From IMG/VR virus record IMGVR_UViG_3300046167_000033, positions 1-43,675 of that record: a stretch of DNA of 43,675 nt; one strand, written 5' to 3'. Positions within the stretch are counted from its first letter, which is position 1. Each line of letters opens with the position of its first letter. Below the pieces are notes generated by a model. That model had not been told where the DNA came from and did no database searches. It saw only the letters and a program-made list of their open reading frames with translations. This document shows positions 4,125-43,474 of the stretch, piece by piece. The stretch is from a virus. Position numbers and translations under genes: made by a program.

Positions 4125-5195
4125 ATGGCATTCGGAAGCGCAAACGGGTATACAAACTTACCTAACGGTAATTTTTCTCCCGTTATTTACAGCAAACAGG
4201 TGCAACTTGCATTTCGCAAATCTGCAGTCTGTGAAGCTATCACTAACTCCGATTATTTCGGGGAAATCGCTCAAATGGGTGACTCAGTAAAAATCATTAA
4301 AGAACCTGAGATTTCTGTGACAGCGTACCTACGTGGTACTACTATCTCAACTCAAGATCTTTCAGATAATGATTTTTCATTAACGATTGATAAAGCGAAC
4401 TATTTTGCTTTCAAAGTCGATGACATCGAAGAAGCACACTCCCATGTAAACTTCCAAAGTTTAGCTTCGGATCGTGCAGCATATCGTTTGGCTGATCAGT
4501 ATGACCAAGATGTTCTTGGTTACTTATCTGGTTACAAACAGGCTGCATTACATGCAAATGCTGGTACAGTAAATAATGTAGTAAATGGTACTAAAGCTAA
4601 CTCAGCGGCAGGTTCCGATGAACTACTTGCAGCAAACAAGCTTATCAAAGGTTCATTTGGTAACATTACAACAACTTCTGCTGGTGATCATTCGATTCCA
4701 GTTGCTGCACGTTTGCCCGGTGCTACTGCATTACCAACAGCTACTGTTTCACCAGCAATGGTTGTGGCTCGTATGAGCCGTTTGATGGATACTCAAAACG
4801 TTGATACTCAAGGTCGCTGGCTCGTAATTGATCCAGTGATGATGGAAATTCTTCGTGATGAAGATTCACGTTTGTTGAACGCCGACTTCGGTGGTTCTGG
4901 TCTTCAGAATGGAATGGTTTTGAACAATTTCCACGGTTTCCGTGTATATGTTTCAAATAATCTTCCTTCAGTTGGTACAGGCGCATCAACAACAGGAACA
5001 GCAAACCAGAACACTAACTATGGTGTGATTGTTGCTGGACATGACTCAGCCGTTGCAACTGCAGAGCAGATCAACAAAACTGAGACTTACCGTGATCCAG
5101 ATTCATTCGCTGACATTGTTCGTGGTATGCATCTATATGGTCGCAAAATCTTGCGTCCAGAAGCATTGGTTACAGCTAAGTACAACTTGGCGTAA
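4125..5195 (+). CDS. Major capsid protein
   Basis: A 356-residue protein that I recognise as a HK97-fold podovirus major capsid protein of the kind found in marine phages. The N-terminal half carries the typical segment about loading onto the shell (YSKQVQLAFRKSAV) followed by a beta-rich region. The C-terminal part contains SFADIVRGMHLYGRKILRPE, typical of the C-terminal strand region. The start follows a strong AAAGGAG with 7-nt spacing. It is placed between scaffold and tail-tube genes, as in T7. It has its own strong promoter and hairpin-rich leader and is followed by a GC-rich hairpin, consistent with high expression as an almost monocistronic message. Confidence 0.93.
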   Translation: MAFGSANGYTNLPNGNFSPVIYSKQVQLAFRKSAVCEAITNSDYFGEIAQMGDSVKIIKEPEISVTAYLRGTTISTQDLSDNDFSLTIDKANYFAFKVDDIEEAHSHVNFQSLASDRAAYRLADQYDQDVLGYLSGYKQAALHANAGTVNNVVNGTKANSAAGSDELLAANKLIKGSFGNITTTSAGDHSIPVAARLPGATALPTATVSPAMVVARMSRLMDTQNVDTQGRWLVIDPVMMEILRDEDSRLLNADFGGSGLQNGMVLNNFHGFRVYVSNNLPSVGTGASTTGTANQNTNYGVIVAGHDSAVATAEQINKTETYRDPDSFADIVRGMHLYGRKILRPEALVTAKYNLA

Positions 5196-5260: not shown

Positions 5261-5956
5261 ATGTCTACATATGTAGAATTGACAAACGAATTATTGCGAA
5301 GGTTAAATGAAGTACCTGTAGATATTGCAGGTTCTGACTTTGCAGCATTACGTAATGTGCAAGCTACAGCTAAAGATGCTATTAACAGTAGCCTTCGTGA
5401 AATTTATCAATCGGGGCAAGAATGGCCTTTCTTAAAAAATTCGTATACTCAAACTCTTACCATAGGTACTCGTGAGTATTCTTTTCCCGCCACTTATTCT
5501 AGTGTAGACTGGGAAACTTTTTACCTTAAAAAACATAGTACACAAAATAATGATCCTACAGTGCTTAGACCTATTAGCTATGAAGAGTATATAAACTCTT
5601 ATAGATCTATGGATGATCAAGCAGATCCTGTAGCAGGAACTGGCGCACCAATAAAAGTATATCAAACCTTTGGTGATTCTTTTGGGGTAACACCGTTACC
5701 TAATGCTGATTATGAAATAGAGTATATTTATTGGTCTATACCTACATCATTGATAAATTATAATGATGTTTGTATTATACCTGAAAGATTTAATCATGTA
5801 ATTATTGACGGTGCTATGGTATACATGATGCATTTTAGAAGTAACGAACAAAGTGCTAATATGCACCAAGCTAAATTCCAACAAGGTATTAAAAGTATGA
5901 GACGTGTTTTGTTCGATGATGAATTAGGATTACGTTCTACAGTTATCGAAAGATAA
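5261..5956 (+). CDS. Tail tubular protein A (head-to-tail adaptor, T7 gp11-like)
   Basis: A 231-residue protein resembling podovirus tail tubular protein A. It has a helical N-terminus (ELTNELLRRLNEVP), a central beta region with YSFPATYSSVDWETFYL, and a C-terminal helical segment with RFNHVIIDGAMVYMM. In T7-type virions this protein forms the ring that joins the portal to the nozzle. It follows the capsid gene and is 2 nt from the next tail gene, matching the T7 order gp10-gp11-gp12. The ribosome-binding site is weak (TTTAGGTG), fitting a lower copy number than capsid. Confidence 0.85.
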   Translation: MSTYVELTNELLRRLNEVPVDIAGSDFAALRNVQATAKDAINSSLREIYQSGQEWPFLKNSYTQTLTIGTREYSFPATYSSVDWETFYLKKHSTQNNDPTVLRPISYEEYINSYRSMDDQADPVAGTGAPIKVYQTFGDSFGVTPLPNADYEIEYIYWSIPTSLINYNDVCIIPERFNHVIIDGAMVYMMHFRSNEQSANMHQAKFQQGIKSMRRVLFDDELGLRSTVIER

Positions 5957-39566: not shown

Positions 39567-39788
39567 TTATCCTGCAAAATGAAATAGTTTGTTAGGGTTG
39601 TACGCATGTTCAACGTACAAGGTACGCTTGCCAAAGTGATAGGCGTTCATGCTATCCAATGGTTGATACTTAAACCATCCACGTGACGTTACCTTACGTT
39701 TACGGTACAAGCCCTTACGTCCAAGGACATTGAAACGAAAACCTTTTGTGCCATCATTCAATGGCTTAGTTGCGAATATTACAAACAT
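39567..39788 (-). CDS. Small basic hypothetical protein
   Basis: I choose ATG 39788 (MFVIFATKPLNDGTKGFRFN) because GGAG lies 7 nt upstream. The 73-residue product is basic and aromatic with a beta-rich pattern, possibly nucleic-acid-binding. It overlaps the stop of the preceding gene (39779) by 10 nt. Confidence 0.65.
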   Translation of the reverse strand: MFVIFATKPLNDGTKGFRFNVLGRKGLYRKRKVTSRGWFKYQPLDSMNAYHFGKRTLYVEHAYNPNKLFHFAG

Positions 39789-40150
39789 GTTTGTACTCCT
39801 TCTGCTTGTATTGTTGGTATCTTGTCGGTCACAGTTAGCCATGCCCGACTTGCTTCGTATACAGGTTCTTCTGTCTGCTTGTCAACAAAAGATGCATACT
39901 TGTATGGGTTGTAAGTTATAGTGTCCAACATTGGACGGTTTGTATAACGAAAAAATGTGGCATCACCACGCACAAAGGCATGGACATTTTTCCTGCCCTC
40001 ACTGAGTACACGATTACGCCCCGACTGACGCACTACAAACTTAGGGTTTTCAATGTGTACTTCGTCAGTGTGTACCATAACTCTGCCTGTCCTACATGAA
40101 CGAACAGAGAATGTTTTCTTATGTAGATTGAAGTATACTTCAACTCTCAT
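39779..40150 (-). CDS. Basic hypothetical protein containing a dyad site
   Basis: ATG 40150 is chosen because GAGGAG lies 7 nt upstream; the earlier in-frame ATG and the start at 40198 lie inside the preceding 50-residue gene. The 123-residue product has a basic beta-rich start (RVEVYFNLHKKTFSVRSC). The 14-bp dyad at 39923-39936 lies inside it and encodes RPMLDT. No family recognised. Confidence 0.6.
   Translation of the reverse strand: MRVEVYFNLHKKTFSVRSCRTGRVMVHTDEVHIENPKFVVRQSGRNRVLSEGRKNVHAFVRGDATFFRYTNRPMLDTITYNPYKYASFVDKQTEEPVYEASRAWLTVTDKIPTIQAEGVQTCL
39923..39936. promoter_or_regulatory. Dyad site 1, GTCCAACATTGGAC
   Basis: Inside the gene at 39779-40150, encoding RPMLDT on the minus strand. 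Flank GGTTT on the plus side matches other copies. Confidence 0.75.
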
Positions 40151-40292
40151 CATCACTCTCCTCAAACTCAACAGACAACGTAAAGGCAAAGTTGCCATCG
40201 TTTGTATATCCCATGTCTGTAATTTTTTCGTGTATCATCTCTGCCAAGAAATCAAACTCTTGGTTTGTGAAATCATTGAGAATTACTGTCAT
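40140..40292 (-). CDS. 50-residue acidic microgene
   Basis: ATG 40292 follows AAAGGTAAGTCTG; TGA ends at 40140 inside the next gene. The product starts MTVILNDFTNQEFDFLAEMI and ends in an acidic tail (EFEESDDES). The frame fills the only gap between two genes and overlaps both, arguing that it is real. Function unknown. Confidence 0.6.
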   Translation of the reverse strand: MTVILNDFTNQEFDFLAEMIHEKITDMGYTNDGNFAFTLSVEFEESDDES

Positions 40293-40467
40293 CAGACTTA
40301 CCTTTCAGTTTTGTTATCACAAATAAGTATACGTATATCTGAATGTATATACACCAGATAGTGAAGGTGTCCACACCTCTCACGTCATAGCCTACACTGT
40401 GCATGATTACAATAGTAATTAGCATAGCAAAGTAGCCAGCGAAAGGTGTGAACAATAGGTAGAGCAT
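40273..40467 (-). CDS. Small membrane protein with two hydrophobic helices
   Basis: A 64-residue protein with two likely transmembrane segments (about 3-25, LLFTPFAGYFAMLITIVIMH, and about 33-53, TFTIWCIYIQIYVYLFVI) and a short polar tail. Starts as TAATG overlap with the upstream HTH-like gene. Could be a superinfection-exclusion or lysis-control protein; no motif supports a choice. Confidence 0.6.
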   Translation of the reverse strand: MLYLLFTPFAGYFAMLITIVIMHSVGYDVRGVDTFTIWCIYIQIYVYLFVITKLKGKSDDSNSQ

Positions 40468-40799
40468 TAGCTATGCTGCGCCAACTTTGCGTCAATGTCC
40501 TGAATGAATGTTGCATACATTTTACGTTGACGTAGTAATGTTGCACGTTGATTTTTATTCTTAATCAAGCCAAGTGTTTTAAGAACACTAACACGGTACA
40601 CTACACGATTGTAATACTCATTTGTTTCATCAGCAATTTGACGATGCGTTTTAGTTTTCCAATTCGCAAGAATGTAATCATCTAACGGCGCATAGTTGTA
40701 CGTGTATTCTGTAGCACGTTTCATGTGAAAGGTGTGTTGTACATACAGGTTTGGGTTAGATGATTTTACTACGGGACGTGTTGATGTTGCGTTTGTCAT
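40467..40799 (-). CDS. Putative helix-turn-helix DNA-binding protein
   Basis: A 110-residue basic protein. Residues about 40-80 (LDDYILANWKTKTHRQIADE, then YYNRVVYRVSVLKTLGLI) look like a helix-turn-helix: a helix, turn and recognition-helix pattern with IADE as the positioning part. The C-terminal 30 residues are basic and helical. Start behind AGGAGCTAACACA. It lies among the dyad sites of this early region, so it is a candidate for the protein that binds them. Confidence 0.6.
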   Translation of the reverse strand: MTNATSTRPVVKSSNPNLYVQHTFHMKRATEYTYNYAPLDDYILANWKTKTHRQIADETNEYYNRVVYRVSVLKTLGLIKNKNQRATLLRQRKMYATFIQDIDAKLAQHS

Positions 40800-40810
40800 T
40801 GTGTTAGCTC

Positions 40811-40924
40811 CTATGCTACTTTTTTACGAAGGTTAAGTTTAGTTTGACGTGCTACTTTACGATCACGTTTCCAATCGTCGTTACGTTTAGACTGTCCAAC
40901 ATTGGACGGTTTTCGTTTAGTCAT
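40811..40924 (-). CDS. 37-residue basic microgene
   Basis: ATG 40924 overlaps the previous gene by 8 nt; stop TAG at 40813-40811. The product MTKRKPSNVGQSKRNDDWKR and its tail are strongly basic. It contains the dyad at 40894-40907. No clear ribosome-binding site, so translation would rely on coupling. Possibly a nucleic-acid-binding peptide. Confidence 0.5.
   Translation of the reverse strand: MTKRKPSNVGQSKRNDDWKRDRKVARQTKLNLRKKVA
40894..40907. promoter_or_regulatory. Dyad site 2, GTCCAACATTGGAC
   Basis: Inside the 37-residue gene at 40811-40924, encoding PSNVGQS on the minus strand, a different frame from site 1. Confidence 0.75.
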
Positions 40925-41087
40925 CTTGATAAAGTTTTGCATCTCGCATCGCATTGAGATTGTCCTTTCTTCGGTTGTGTTTAGCCTTGCTACCTTTCTT
41001 AGGCGGCACGACTTGTGGTGATTTACGCTCCTGTAACATTGCCTTTGCCACAGGGTTTCGGTATGTTACAGAAGTTTTCTTAGCCAT
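40917..41087 (-). CDS. Small basic protein, 56 residues
   Basis: ATG 41087 (MAKKTSVTYRNPVAKAMLQE) overlaps the upstream gene by 8 nt (ATGGCTAA). Product is rich in Lys, Arg and Asn with KHNRRKDNLNAMRD near the end. Basic composition suggests nucleic-acid binding. The alternative longer start at 41099 has no better signal. Confidence 0.55.
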   Translation of the reverse strand: MAKKTSVTYRNPVAKAMLQERKSPQVVPPKKGSKAKHNRRKDNLNAMRDAKLYQDD

Positions 41088-41709
41088 GTTCAAATCCATA
41101 TGTTATACATTCAACGTGGTAACGTGATACCACATCGCCAGTATCCAAGGCACGGTTGGCACGATTACCTGCCACGTATTTACACCATGTATTCCACCAG
41201 TATTCACTGCCCTCTTGCTGCGTCAGTTCGACATACTGCTCAACTTTCTTGCGTACTGTAGCGGGTTTCATGCCTGATGGCGGTGTCTTCACAAGGTTAG
41301 GTGATATACCCAATCGCTTGATATTGTGGCTGTCTATACATGCCACATTGAAGCCAAGGCATTGAGCTAGGAAGGCAGCTTTGACCATGCCAAGGTTAGG
41401 TACAGCCATGAACAATTGTATGACATCAGCACATGCTTCCACACTGTCATAACCTTTGGTGTCTACTATGTGGTACAGCTTGCCATACAAGAACTCTTTG
41501 TTCTCGTTTAGGTACTCGTAGCCATCAGCTTTCTTACCCCACAAGCAATCAGCTTGGTAGAAGTCACGTTCTACTTTGACCATGCTGCCACGGACTGTGG
41601 ACAAGCCAGCTTGGATTGTGAGCAGTACAAACAAGCCAGTGTTTACCAAGGCATCTGGGCCACGCCATTTTACGAAAGCTTTGATCTCATTTACATCACG
41701 TTGATACAT
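41080..41709 (-). CDS. Hypothetical protein with helix-hairpin-helix-like core
   Basis: A 209-residue protein behind AAAGGACGATACG. Residues about 101-128 (MAVPNLGMVKAAFLAQCLGF then VACIDSHN) resemble the helix-hairpin-helix and following Asp of HhH-GPD DNA glycosylases such as endonuclease III, although the family's iron-sulfur Cys set is absent. It could therefore be a DNA-base-flipping or structure-binding protein. Transcribed from a predicted promoter at 41826-41799, with the dyad and a hairpin in its leader. Confidence 0.65.
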   Translation of the reverse strand: MYQRDVNEIKAFVKWRGPDALVNTGLFVLLTIQAGLSTVRGSMVKVERDFYQADCLWGKKADGYEYLNENKEFLYGKLYHIVDTKGYDSVEACADVIQLFMAVPNLGMVKAAFLAQCLGFNVACIDSHNIKRLGISPNLVKTPPSGMKPATVRKKVEQYVELTQQEGSEYWWNTWCKYVAGNRANRALDTGDVVSRYHVECITYGFEHG

Positions 41710-41728
41710 CGTATCGTCCTTTTAAAGT

Positions 41729-41750
41729 GATAGCTAGCCTTACGGCTATC
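41729..41750 (-). promoter_or_regulatory. Alternative leader hairpins before the HhH-like gene
   Basis: GATAGC (41729-41734) and GCTATC (41745-41750) can pair; alternatively TAGCC (41735-41739) pairs with GGCTA (41744-41748). The two stems are mutually exclusive. They lie between the dyad and the ribosome-binding site of the gene starting at 41709, so a switch in leader structure is possible but unproven. Confidence 0.45.
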
Positions 41751-41753
41751 TTT

Positions 41754-41767
41754 GTCCAACATTGGAC
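41754..41767. promoter_or_regulatory. Dyad site 3, GTCCAACATTGGAC
   Basis: Lies in the leader of the gene at 41709, 31 nt downstream of the -10 box at 41799-41804. In the leftward sense it reads GTCCAATGTTGGAC. Confidence 0.8.
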
Positions 41768-41798
41768 GGTTTCAATTTGGTAGTTAGTATATGTATAT

Positions 41799-41826
41799 GT
41801 TATATATACTTTCACTAAAGTATCAA
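41799..41826 (-). promoter_or_regulatory. Leftward sigma70-like promoter with downstream dyad
   Basis: On the minus strand TTGATA (41826-41821) and TATAAC (41804-41799) are 16 nt apart. The -35 side lies in a 21-nt repeat shared with the promoter at 42130-42102. The dyad follows at about +25 to +38. Confidence 0.75.
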
Positions 41827-41842
41827 GTATATATAACTTATA

Positions 41843-42037
41843 CTATACATAAAGTTCAGCTTGCTCCGCTTCACTCATTCCTGTAATGAGGAACTCACGT
41901 TCCACTGCTGACAAGTTAGGCATTGCCTCTTGGATGAGCATACCCTCACGCCATAGCAAGTATTCATGCATGGTAACGTCAAGTTTCATTGTGTTTTTAA
42001 CACCAGAAACGATTGATCTACGAGTAATTTCCATCAT
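41843..42037 (-). CDS. Small hypothetical protein, 64 residues
   Basis: Short alpha-rich protein (LDVTMHEYLLWREGMLIQEA; LSAVEREFLITGMSEAEQAE). Starts at ATGATG 42037 or 42034 with no clear Shine-Dalgarno. The pattern recalls a small conserved marine-phage protein ending in acidic-aromatic residues, function unknown. It is the only gene after the promoter at 42130-42102. Confidence 0.62.
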   Translation of the reverse strand: MMEITRRSIVSGVKNTMKLDVTMHEYLLWREGMLIQEAMPNLSAVEREFLITGMSEAEQAELYV

Positions 42038-42057
42038 TTTTAAATCCCGTTTAAAGT

Positions 42058-42071
42058 GTCCAACATTGGAC
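42058..42071. promoter_or_regulatory. Dyad site 4, GTCCAACATTGGAC
   Basis: Intergenic, 30 nt downstream of the -10 box at 42102-42107 and about 20 nt before the start at 42037. Same spacing as site 3. Confidence 0.8.
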
Positions 42072-42101
42072 GGTTTCAGTTATCTTTAGTATTATACATA
42101 T

Positions 42102-42130
42102 GTTATATAACACTTTCACTAAAGTATCAA
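42102..42130 (-). promoter_or_regulatory. Leftward sigma70-like promoter with downstream dyad (second copy)
   Basis: On the minus strand TTGATA (42130-42125) and TATAAC (42107-42102) are 17 nt apart. Shares the 21-nt repeat with the promoter at 41826-41799, with the dyad about 30 nt downstream. Confidence 0.77.
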
Positions 42131-42152
42131 GTGTTTATATAACTATGTAATA

Positions 42153-42320
42153 CTACTTGTCAAGAGGACGTTCACAAATTGTGATAAACCCCAACATTGC
42201 AACGGGAACCGCAATGCCAATGAGTATGTGCAAGTGACCATTGAGTGATACAACGGCAATGGTCAAATAGGTAAGTAATACAAGTATTACAGACCAAGCA
42301 ATAGCGAGAATAATTTTCAT
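42153..42320 (-). CDS. Small membrane protein with two spans
   Basis: ATG 42320 (MKIILAIAWSVILVLLTYLT) is preferred: its ATGA overlaps the previous stop and AAGGA lies just upstream. The 55-residue protein has two hydrophobic helices (about 2-24 and 30-47) and a short charged end. Probable inner-membrane protein; function unknown. Confidence 0.62.
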   Translation of the reverse strand: MKIILAIAWSVILVLLTYLTIAVVSLNGHLHILIGIAVPVAMLGFITICERPLDK

Positions 42321-42517
42321 GATACATCCTTCCATCCACTATCGTAGATAAGTGTTGGTTCACGTTTCTTTAACTCTTTAGGAGTTAATGTGTTATCAAT
42401 CAAAGTGTCCAATGTTGGACGGTTCATGTCCTCTGCGAGTTCACAGAACTGTGACATAGCAGCGTCAAGCTGTGATTGCTCAACGCTGGCTTTGGTGTTA
42501 GGTACTTTGTACCTCAT
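42317..42517 (-). CDS. Small hypothetical protein containing a dyad site
   Basis: A 66-residue acidic helical protein whose ATG overlaps the previous stop (ATGA). The dyad at 42407-42420 lies inside and encodes RPTLDT in the frame also used at 39923. Ends GWKDVS. No family recognised. Confidence 0.6.
   Translation of the reverse strand: MRYKVPNTKASVEQSQLDAAMSQFCELAEDMNRPTLDTLIDNTLTPKELKKREPTLIYDSGWKDVS
42407..42420. promoter_or_regulatory. Dyad site 5, GTCCAATGTTGGAC
   Basis: Inside the gene at 42317-42517, in the inverted centre form (TG on the plus strand) but with the same outer flank GGTT. Encodes RPTLDT. Confidence 0.75.
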
Positions 42518-43089
42518 GCAGCAGCCTTTTGACGATCAGCCAATACCTCAAGTAAATCATTTATGATTTCTTCAAGGTCAACTTCGTTGAGTTCAGCCTG
42601 AGCAATAACAGCATTTACAATGGCTGTTTTGGAGTAACGCTGTTTAGGTGCATCAGCCTTTGGCTGTTCAGTAGGCTCAGACTGTCCAACATTGGACGCT
42701 TCACCTTCGGTGGTTTCAGCATCATCTGCTTTAGCAGCCTTACGCATTGCAGCTTGTAAAGCTGTCAGTGATGAACCTTTAAAATTGCCATTGGCAATAA
42801 ACTCACGACACTCTTTTTCGTTTTCAACGAACCACAAAGCCTCTGAACGACGGCGACGATCAATCTGCTGAATACCATGAGTCCGAAGGACATGTGTTGG
42901 TATTTGACCGCTGTCTACGGTAGACTGAGCCTTCAACTCTTGTAAGAGTTTACCCAACCTTGTATCAAAACCATTCTCTTTGATGGTTTGCTTGAGGCTG
43001 TTCACTTGACGCCAAATTGATCCAAGGGCTTTGCCCTCTTTTACCAATGCTGAGATTGAAGTACCTGAAGTCGTTGTTGAGTTTTTCAT
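42514..43089 (-). CDS. First early gene, hypothetical protein with basic centre
   Basis: A 191-residue protein behind AAAAGGATAAACCG. An N-terminal helical region (about 15-65) precedes a highly basic run QIDRRRRSEALWFVENEKE (about 74-92). A Glu/Pro/Ala-rich linker contains the dyad (encoding ASNVGQS), and an acidic helical C-terminus ends near LADRQ. As promoter-proximal gene of the leftward arm it may be an early regulator or host-takeover protein. The basic patch suggests nucleic-acid binding. No family recognised. Confidence 0.65.
   Translation of the reverse strand: MKNSTTTSGTSISALVKEGKALGSIWRQVNSLKQTIKENGFDTRLGKLLQELKAQSTVDSGQIPTHVLRTHGIQQIDRRRRSEALWFVENEKECREFIANGNFKGSSLTALQAAMRKAAKADDAETTEGEASNVGQSEPTEQPKADAPKQRYSKTAIVNAVIAQAELNEVDLEEIINDLLEVLADRQKAAA
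42684..42697. promoter_or_regulatory. Dyad site 6, GTCCAACATTGGAC
   Basis: Inside the first early gene (42514-43089), encoding ASNVGQS on the minus strand, the same frame as site 2. Confidence 0.75.
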
Positions 43090-43106
43090 CGGTTTATCCT
43101 TTTATC

Positions 43107-43185
43107 TATATTCTGTTTATATGAGAGAACCTATATCTCTCACAAATAGTGAGATATAGTTCTCTTTATAAACGAGTAGAATATA
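43107..43185. promoter_or_regulatory. Long imperfect inverted repeat before the first early gene
   Basis: The core GAGAAC..TATATCTC..CAC (43125-43143) pairs with GTGAGATATAGTTCTC (43149-43164) with two bulged bases. Outer arms GTTTATA/TATAAAC and TATATTCT/AGAATATA continue the symmetry. It lies in the leader or promoter of the gene starting at 43089. A TTGACA on the minus strand (43201-43196) is adjacent, but I see no well-spaced -10. Confidence 0.65.
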
Positions 43186-43210
43186 GTATAAGTTCTGTCA
43201 AGTCGGTTCT

Positions 43211-43474
43211 TCACATGTGATCCTCTGCGCCTGTCGTTTCCCGTATGACTGCAACGTAGTAGTTAGCACTAACTACGTAGTGAAGTTCGTGCGCTAAACT
43301 CGTGAGGCTAGTTTGGGTTGGGCAAACTGTTGGTGTTGCATATATATCACAGTTATACTGTGGCATGTCCAATGTTGGACACTGTTGGTTTGAATATAAT
43401 GTGACCATCACCATAGGTGGTAGGGTATATGTGCATCGGCACTGCAACACACCATCGGTGTCATAATACCCCAT
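43211..43474 (-). CDS. Doubtful 87-codon open frame
   Basis: The frame has ATG 43474 without a ribosome-binding site. Its product is rich in Thr, Tyr and Cys and resembles no family. It also spans several inverted repeats and dyad site 7. I list it so the region is covered; it is more likely non-coding regulatory DNA. Confidence 0.2.
   Translation of the reverse strand: MGYYDTDGVLQCRCTYTLPPMVMVTLYSNQQCPTLDMPQYNCDIYATPTVCPTQTSLTSLAHELHYVVSANYYVAVIRETTGAEDHM
43348..43362. promoter_or_regulatory. Perfect inverted repeat CACAGTTATACTGTG
   Basis: Six-base arms around TAT, overlapping a TATACT word that could be a rightward -10 box. Adjacent to dyad site 7, so it may be a second operator type. 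Confidence 0.5.
43367..43380. promoter_or_regulatory. Dyad site 7, GTCCAATGTTGGAC
   Basis: In the non-coding right end, 5 nt after a perfect 15-bp inverted repeat (43348-43362). Closest copy to the window end. Confidence 0.75.

Follow-up and report, generated by a model that had tools for sequence, protein, structure and literature searches.

Early-region dyads of HMO-2011-type phages and gp01, their predicted regulator of changing specificity

The virus record IMGVR_UViG_3300046167_000033 from IMG/VR, analysed here over its whole length as a single window of 43,675 nucleotides, carries seven exact copies of the 14-bp dyad GTCCAANNTTGGAC between positions 39923 and 43380. The repeat is genuine and selection acts on its copies as sites, and covariation in related phages strongly supports gp01, a small protein encoded among them, as their predicted binder. 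We consider it likely that gp01 binds the dyads and represses the early operon, its own gene included, from several operators, in a system that changes specificity between phages. The window was rightly assigned to the HMO-2011-type phages in the preliminary description, and its nearest cultured relatives are the Roseobacter phages CRP-1 and CRP-345, both of this type (PMC9038755, PMC6918029). HMO-2011-type phages are dominant and widespread in the ocean (PMC9038755), and many of them contain an integrase.

All seven copies described previously were recovered (Table 1), and a motif scan of the whole 43.7-kb window, allowing no or one mismatch, retrieved no further copy, in agreement with the earlier reading by eye. 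Two-mismatch matches occur at two places, 12605 and 27853; the nine matches with up to two mismatches compare with a mean of 1.7 and a maximum of 6 in 100 dinucleotide shuffles. Likewise, a de novo scan of the window for inverted repeats (arms of 5–7, gaps of 0–8, at least four copies) identified the GTCCAANNTTGGAC family as the sole repeated dyad. The arms are identical in all seven sites and the centre alone varies, being CA or TG. The similarity proposed for the minus-strand flanks holds in part: AACC precedes five of the seven dyads, with AGC at 42684 and AGT at 43367, and the base following GGAC is A in every copy.

When viral contigs were scanned for exact matches to one form of the motif, many stretches were retrieved, dozens of them with 3–10 copies. 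Homologues of gp01 are present in viral contigs, and nearly every multi-copy locus of sufficient extent contains one, which is true of no other protein family; among phage records, tblastn with gp01 retrieved homologues only from CRP-1 and CRP-345. In CRP-1, the first 49 kb of the record contain four GTCCAA dyads and a fifth precedes the first gene, and CRP-345 contains five and one more, each count including one match in the integrase. We found no repeated dyad of this kind in the early regions of CRP-2, CRP-603, CRP-207, CRP-738 and HTVC033P.

To describe their distribution, 395 dyads from 80 gp01 loci were counted in bins of 500 bp, measured from the start of gp01. The interval from −7000 to −500, which corresponds to 6.5–7 kb of late genes, is empty of them, and their density is 0.85–0.97 per locus and bin from −500 to +1500, falling to zero by about +4 kb. 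A minor group lies farther on, between +5.5 and +7.5 kb, and is ascribed at least in part to the integrase coding match. The early-region confinement noted in the window therefore extends to the 80 related loci. Nearly all loci that reach far enough upstream retain a site at about −230 to −440, and 70 of the 80 have a dyad within gp01. Of 343 unique sites after gp01, 79% are followed within 60 nt by a Shine-Dalgarno-like sequence and a start (random 30%), and 30% lie in an open reading frame (ORF) of at least 60 aa (random 76%). Seven of the 80 loci lack an early-region GTCCAA dyad, and a blind inverted-repeat search found that they contain instead five or six copies of GTCCGANNTCGGAC at the same relative positions (three copies in one partial contig). 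The sites are thus kept in relatives, as would be expected from the preliminary description, or switched in concert.

Classed by the dominant dyad of their loci, 104 of 126 distinct gp01s go with GTCCAA, 14 with GTCCGA, two with CCCCAA and one with GTCCTA, with five left unassigned. Among 494 unique sites, the two central bases are CA/TG in 345, CG in 112, CC/GG in 34 and TA in three, and the other six centre classes were never seen; this restriction to pyrimidine-purine (YR) and CC classes fits indirect DNA readout.

Among all columns of the 126 gp01s, residue 109 shows the highest normalised mutual information (nMI) with dyad type. Proteins with Thr109 have GTCCAA/GTCCAA sites, with a handful of exceptions, and those with Ser109 and Lys113 have GTCCGA/GTCCGA in 63 of 63 sites. 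The combination Ser109 and Arg113 is mixed (17 GTCCAA/GTCCAA, 14 hybrid), Val109 and Arg113 goes with GTCCAA (11), and Gln109 and Arg113 with GTCCTA (three, plus one hybrid). Gln79, next to Asp78 or Ser78, accompanies CCCCAA (seven, plus one variant), and flank position −1 is a pyrimidine in 73 of 76 cases with Arg78 and a purine in 39 of 42 with Lys78. On a gp01 tree built without columns 104–152, the A/G label of the dyad changes at least nine times on well-supported branches, and Ser109 plus Lys113 agrees with it in nine of nine independent pairs (sign test, p ~0.004). The label does not cluster significantly on the tree (59 of 500 shuffles were as low), so changes of specificity are frequent.

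The association was upheld out of sample. A viral scan by DNA alone retrieved ten further GTCCGA loci with gp01; nine encode Ser109 and Lys113, and the tenth (L474) has Ser109 in a print ending before residue 113. When 19 other families of the region were analysed in the same way, none had a column of comparable strength at comparable sample size, small families reaching an nMI of 0.38 at most with just two GTCCGA members. The earlier suggestion that a dimeric DNA-binding protein reads the sites is supported, and the residue-by-base covariation points to gp01 as that protein.

Constraint is also apparent where the dyad is part of a coding sequence. In 86 of 90 cases the SNVG peptide of the gp01 linker is written TCC AAY GTT GGA, although these three fixed codons, TCC, GTT and GGA, account for only 14%, 45% and 21% of the codons for their amino acids. 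GTCCGA phages have SDVG, with GTC as the Val codon, which restores the palindrome. A further candidate site, GTCCAAGGTTGGAC in the integrase of relatives, was rejected: it codes the conserved MERLSKVGR and is probably no site, because it is unchanged in two GTCCGA genomes.

The AlphaFold2 (AF2) model of gp01 is all-helical, with helices at 65–71, 78–89 (the RRRR helix, including residues 78–79) and 108–124 (including residues 109 and 113), and a C-terminal helical pair at 154–190. A disordered linker, residues 126–149, is the part whose coding sequence holds dyad 2. We found no sequence match to gp01 in the PDB up to an E value of 10, only weak matches, which were not used, in Pfam and PHROG searches, and no HTH_3-type Pfam match in any of 39 gp01 members.

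From these patterns we propose that gp01, most likely in dimeric form, would bind 14–16 bp dyads sequence-specifically. Position 5 of each half-site would be recognised by residues 109 and 113, at the N-terminus of helix 108–124, and the outer bases, at about positions −1 and +1, by helix 78–89, with indirect readout of the central YR or CC step. Bound at several operators, gp01 would repress the early operon, itself included, by blocking initiation or by acting as a roadblock to elongation; we infer an autoregulatory early repressor because sites lie before and within gp01 and most of the others just before the ribosome-binding sites of early genes. Sites and protein change specificity together and often, as immunity (homotypic repression) groups would, and this is possibly an immunity system. 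The site distribution, the concerted switch and the residue-by-base covariation are observed directly, and from them we infer binding, dimerisation, repression and immunity for gp01. Given the leading position of gp01 in the early operon and the lack of any prophage among the genomes searched, a lytic early shut-off is about as likely as classical immunity. A wider proposal, to which we give somewhat less than an even chance, is that gp01 defines a new family of DNA-binding regulators, with a fold not represented in the PDB, for multi-operator early-gene immunity in HMO-2011-type phages; its GTCCAA, GTCCGA, GTCCTA, CCCCAA and GTCCGACAGCGGAC groups would turn over by changes of one or two residues together with replacement of all 5–9 operators, driven by competition during co-infection.

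Several observations weigh against parts of this proposal. A search of 84,980 species genomes of bacteria and archaea returned neither a gp01 homologue nor a prophage carrying one, which leaves lysogeny and immunity without support; of the stoperator or immunity likeness suggested in the preliminary description, the dispersed early sites stand and immunity has to stay conditional. The AF2 model is of moderate confidence (predicted local distance difference test, pLDDT, 78; predicted template modelling score, pTM, 0.54) and no PDB fold matches significantly (best E value 0.6), so that the putative recognition helix is identified by covariation. For position 1, the pairing of Gln79 with CCCCAA comes from two genomes only, and a general rule of Gln79 for C at position 1 is weakened by Lys78-Gln79 proteins that keep G1. 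The tie of Arg78 and Lys78 to flank type may reflect phylogeny. Finally, promoter-like matches in the region are no commoner than in shuffles, and the sites in leaders could act in RNA.

An RNA element is one of the alternatives, in which gp01 or another protein would bind a hairpin in mRNA leaders and control translation. The preliminary description had dismissed it on the ground that the dyad is too tight for an RNA hairpin. This does not hold, as the dyad can fold with five pairs and a 4-nt loop and several copies are listed as terminator-like stems; geometry alone thus leaves RNA possible, and many sites do have a conserved hairpin on one side and the Shine-Dalgarno sequence on the other. 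We nevertheless consider this explanation improbable, because the variable centre follows a strand-symmetric YR/CC rule with no conserved loop, one site is ~280 bp upstream of gp01, and the hybrid GTCCAACGTCGGAC at −294 in locus L426 would be an A-C mismatch in RNA of the gp01 strand. The dyads might also be sites for a host regulator or another phage protein, gp01 covarying by linkage alone, since gp01 and the sites adjoin and would recombine together. That the tie involves two residues of one helix, recurs at least nine times on divergent gp01 backbones, is upheld out of sample and is absent from neighbouring families makes this very improbable, and switching phage by phage would not be expected of a host regulator.

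Rather more room is left for the idea that gp01 does bind the dyads and has some other main task, such as early or middle activation, replication loading, or ParB-like DNA organisation or partition, although we regard it as unlikely. The spread of sites over ~3.5 kb, with one near the early/late boundary, agrees with it, and placement before start sites would suit an activator too; however, the downstream leader positions suit roadblock or repression better, the sites are ~200–1000 bp apart and not iteron-like, and a ParB-like role finds no annotated ParA-like gene in the relatives and no ParB match in Pfam or the PDB. The two window sites that code the same SNVGQ peptide could evoke repeats arising by chance or as a by-product of coding. 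Elsewhere the dyad is intergenic or read in a different frame, synonymous positions are fixed, and far below one exact copy is expected per genome by base count; together with the site distribution and the concerted switch, this refutes such an origin, whose probability we regard as negligible.

The predicted gp01 system shares features with several known ones. Operators of the lambdoid CI/Cro repressors are symmetric, and one or two helix residues can switch their specificity; both traits recur in gp01 and its dyads. In contrast to the clustered triplets of CI/Cro at divergent promoters, the gp01 sites are single, scattered over 3.5 kb and often before starts, and gp01 is unrelated in Pfam and PHROG searches and has no HTH_3-type domain. 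ParB/Noc-parS systems use 14–16 bp palindromes near the gene, with a small residue set switching specificity, and resemble gp01 in these dispersed palindromes near the gene and in specificity set by few residues; nonetheless, no ParB-type domain was found in gp01 (Pfam, PDB), and a search limited to the genes annotated in CRP-1 and CRP-345 gave no ParA partner. As in the Cluster A mycobacteriophages (L5, Bxb1, TipsytheTRex), a phage-encoded regulator coexists with several near-identical sites within and between genes, and the sites and the regulator switch specificity together between relatives, as do stoperators and their repressors (PMC6550527). Stoperators, however, are 13-bp sites, mostly oriented with transcription and numbering up to ~30 per genome (PMC6550527), and are asymmetric sequences, each recognised by a repressor monomer that has two DNA-binding domains (PMC9283540). 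Unlike these genome-wide, one-orientation sites of L5 type, the gp01 dyads are palindromic, with the centre in both orientations, number ~5–9 and are confined to the early region, and PDB searches gave no sequence match and no significant fold match that would relate gp01 to the solved stoperator repressor.

The word repressor was not found in the HMO-2011-type genome papers searched. Regulator, operators and residue-to-base code can here be read from sequence alone, so that specificity groups can be assigned to uncultured phages, an assignment open to test. Moreover, the repeated coupled switch of one helix and 5–9 scattered operators is a natural experiment on specificity change of a whole set of sites.

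The family reaches HMO-2011 itself. The best viral model match to gp01 is S4S2E1 (205 aa, E value 8e-6), which we take from its length, equal to that of HMO-2011 gp74, to be gp74 itself. HMO-2011 gp74 (GU557055) is a remote gp01 homologue (hhalign, 98.8%) that occupies the same genomic place. We define the gp01/gp74 family by a homologous protein encoded by the first early gene and by at least three identical dyads between about −450 and +4 kb of its gene, and both are seen here. In HMO-2011, five early dyads of type GTCCGACAGCGGAC lie at −290, +639, +1174, +2376 and +3041 of gp74, at similar spacing and with the same hairpin element (see below). They differ in not being fully symmetric at position 6, and gp74, annotated as hypothetical only, has Lys aligned with gp01 residue 109. 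A scan for close relatives of gp74 retrieved HMO-2011 alone.

A second element accompanies the sites in leaders (Table 1). A hairpin with the apical part CUUGAUACUUUAGUGAAAG lies 40–65 bp before the dyad in 61 of 72 cases at up to one mismatch, HMO-2011 (L465/L466) included, and six of the ten consensus pairs of its stem show double changes. There is no Rfam match for it, and neither the dyad motif nor the hairpin sequence was found in the literature searched. Placed ahead of start sites as well as dyads, it may serve as a leader RNA or as a processing or antitermination element. The sequence TTGATACTTTAGTGA before dyads was considered as a −35 box, but its flanking arms vary while staying complementary and promoter-like matches are at shuffle level, so this was not retained as the main reading. 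A version of the hairpin with a GC stem is found before gp01 in locus L342 and before HMO-2011 gp74.

Table 1. Dyads, hairpins and the gp01 gene in the window
Feature	Position	Strand	Description
gp01	42514..43089	−	191 aa, first gene of leftward early operon; predicted dyad-binding regulator
Dyad 1	43367..43380		GTCCAATGTTGGAC; intergenic, ~280 bp upstream of gp01
Dyad 2	42684..42697		Within gp01; codes SNVGQ in linker
Dyad 3	42407..42420		Within small ORF 42317-42517(−)
Dyad 4	42058..42071		Intergenic, 21 nt before start of ORF 41843-42037(−), after hairpin 2
Dyad 5	41754..41767		Intergenic, 45 nt before start of ORF 41080-41709(−), after hairpin 1
Dyad 6	40894..40907		Near start of small ORF 40811-40954(−); SNVGQ-coding, in a gene other than gp01
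Dyad 7	39923..39936		Within ORF 39779-40198(−)
Hairpin 1	41799..41837	−	Apical part CUUGAUACUUUAGUGAAAG, covarying AU stem; just upstream of dyad 5
Hairpin 2	42102..42143	−	Apical part as in hairpin 1, with a different compensating stem; lies upstream of dyad 4

The gp01 leader also contains a long AT-rich inverted repeat (43092..43193, minus strand, with approximate ends read from the sequence), in which no Rfam family reaches its gathering score; CRP-1 has an analogous repeat (TAACTTAT...ATAAGTTA) before its gp01. Palindromes of the form TTGTGATCACAA, which look like CRP/FNR-type sites, lie in intergenic DNA directly beside the upstream dyad of CRP-1 (L126 ~4790-4830) and CRP-345 (L127 ~5465-5510). 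Adjoining the regulatory region, a small conserved protein heads the divergent late operon (CRP-1 gp67, L126:3900-4118; CRP-345 gp81); its family shows weak similarity to DUF7076 and has no column tied to dyad type. The record seems incomplete at both ends of the window, 1 and 43675, as relatives of 54–55 kb extend further with terminase, lysis and other genes. CRP-3, of another subgroup, integrates (PMC6918029). Lastly, a peptide DSGWKxP or DTGWxE recurs in otherwise unlike small early proteins, namely those of ORF 42317-42517, CRP-1 gp02 and CRP-345 gp01.

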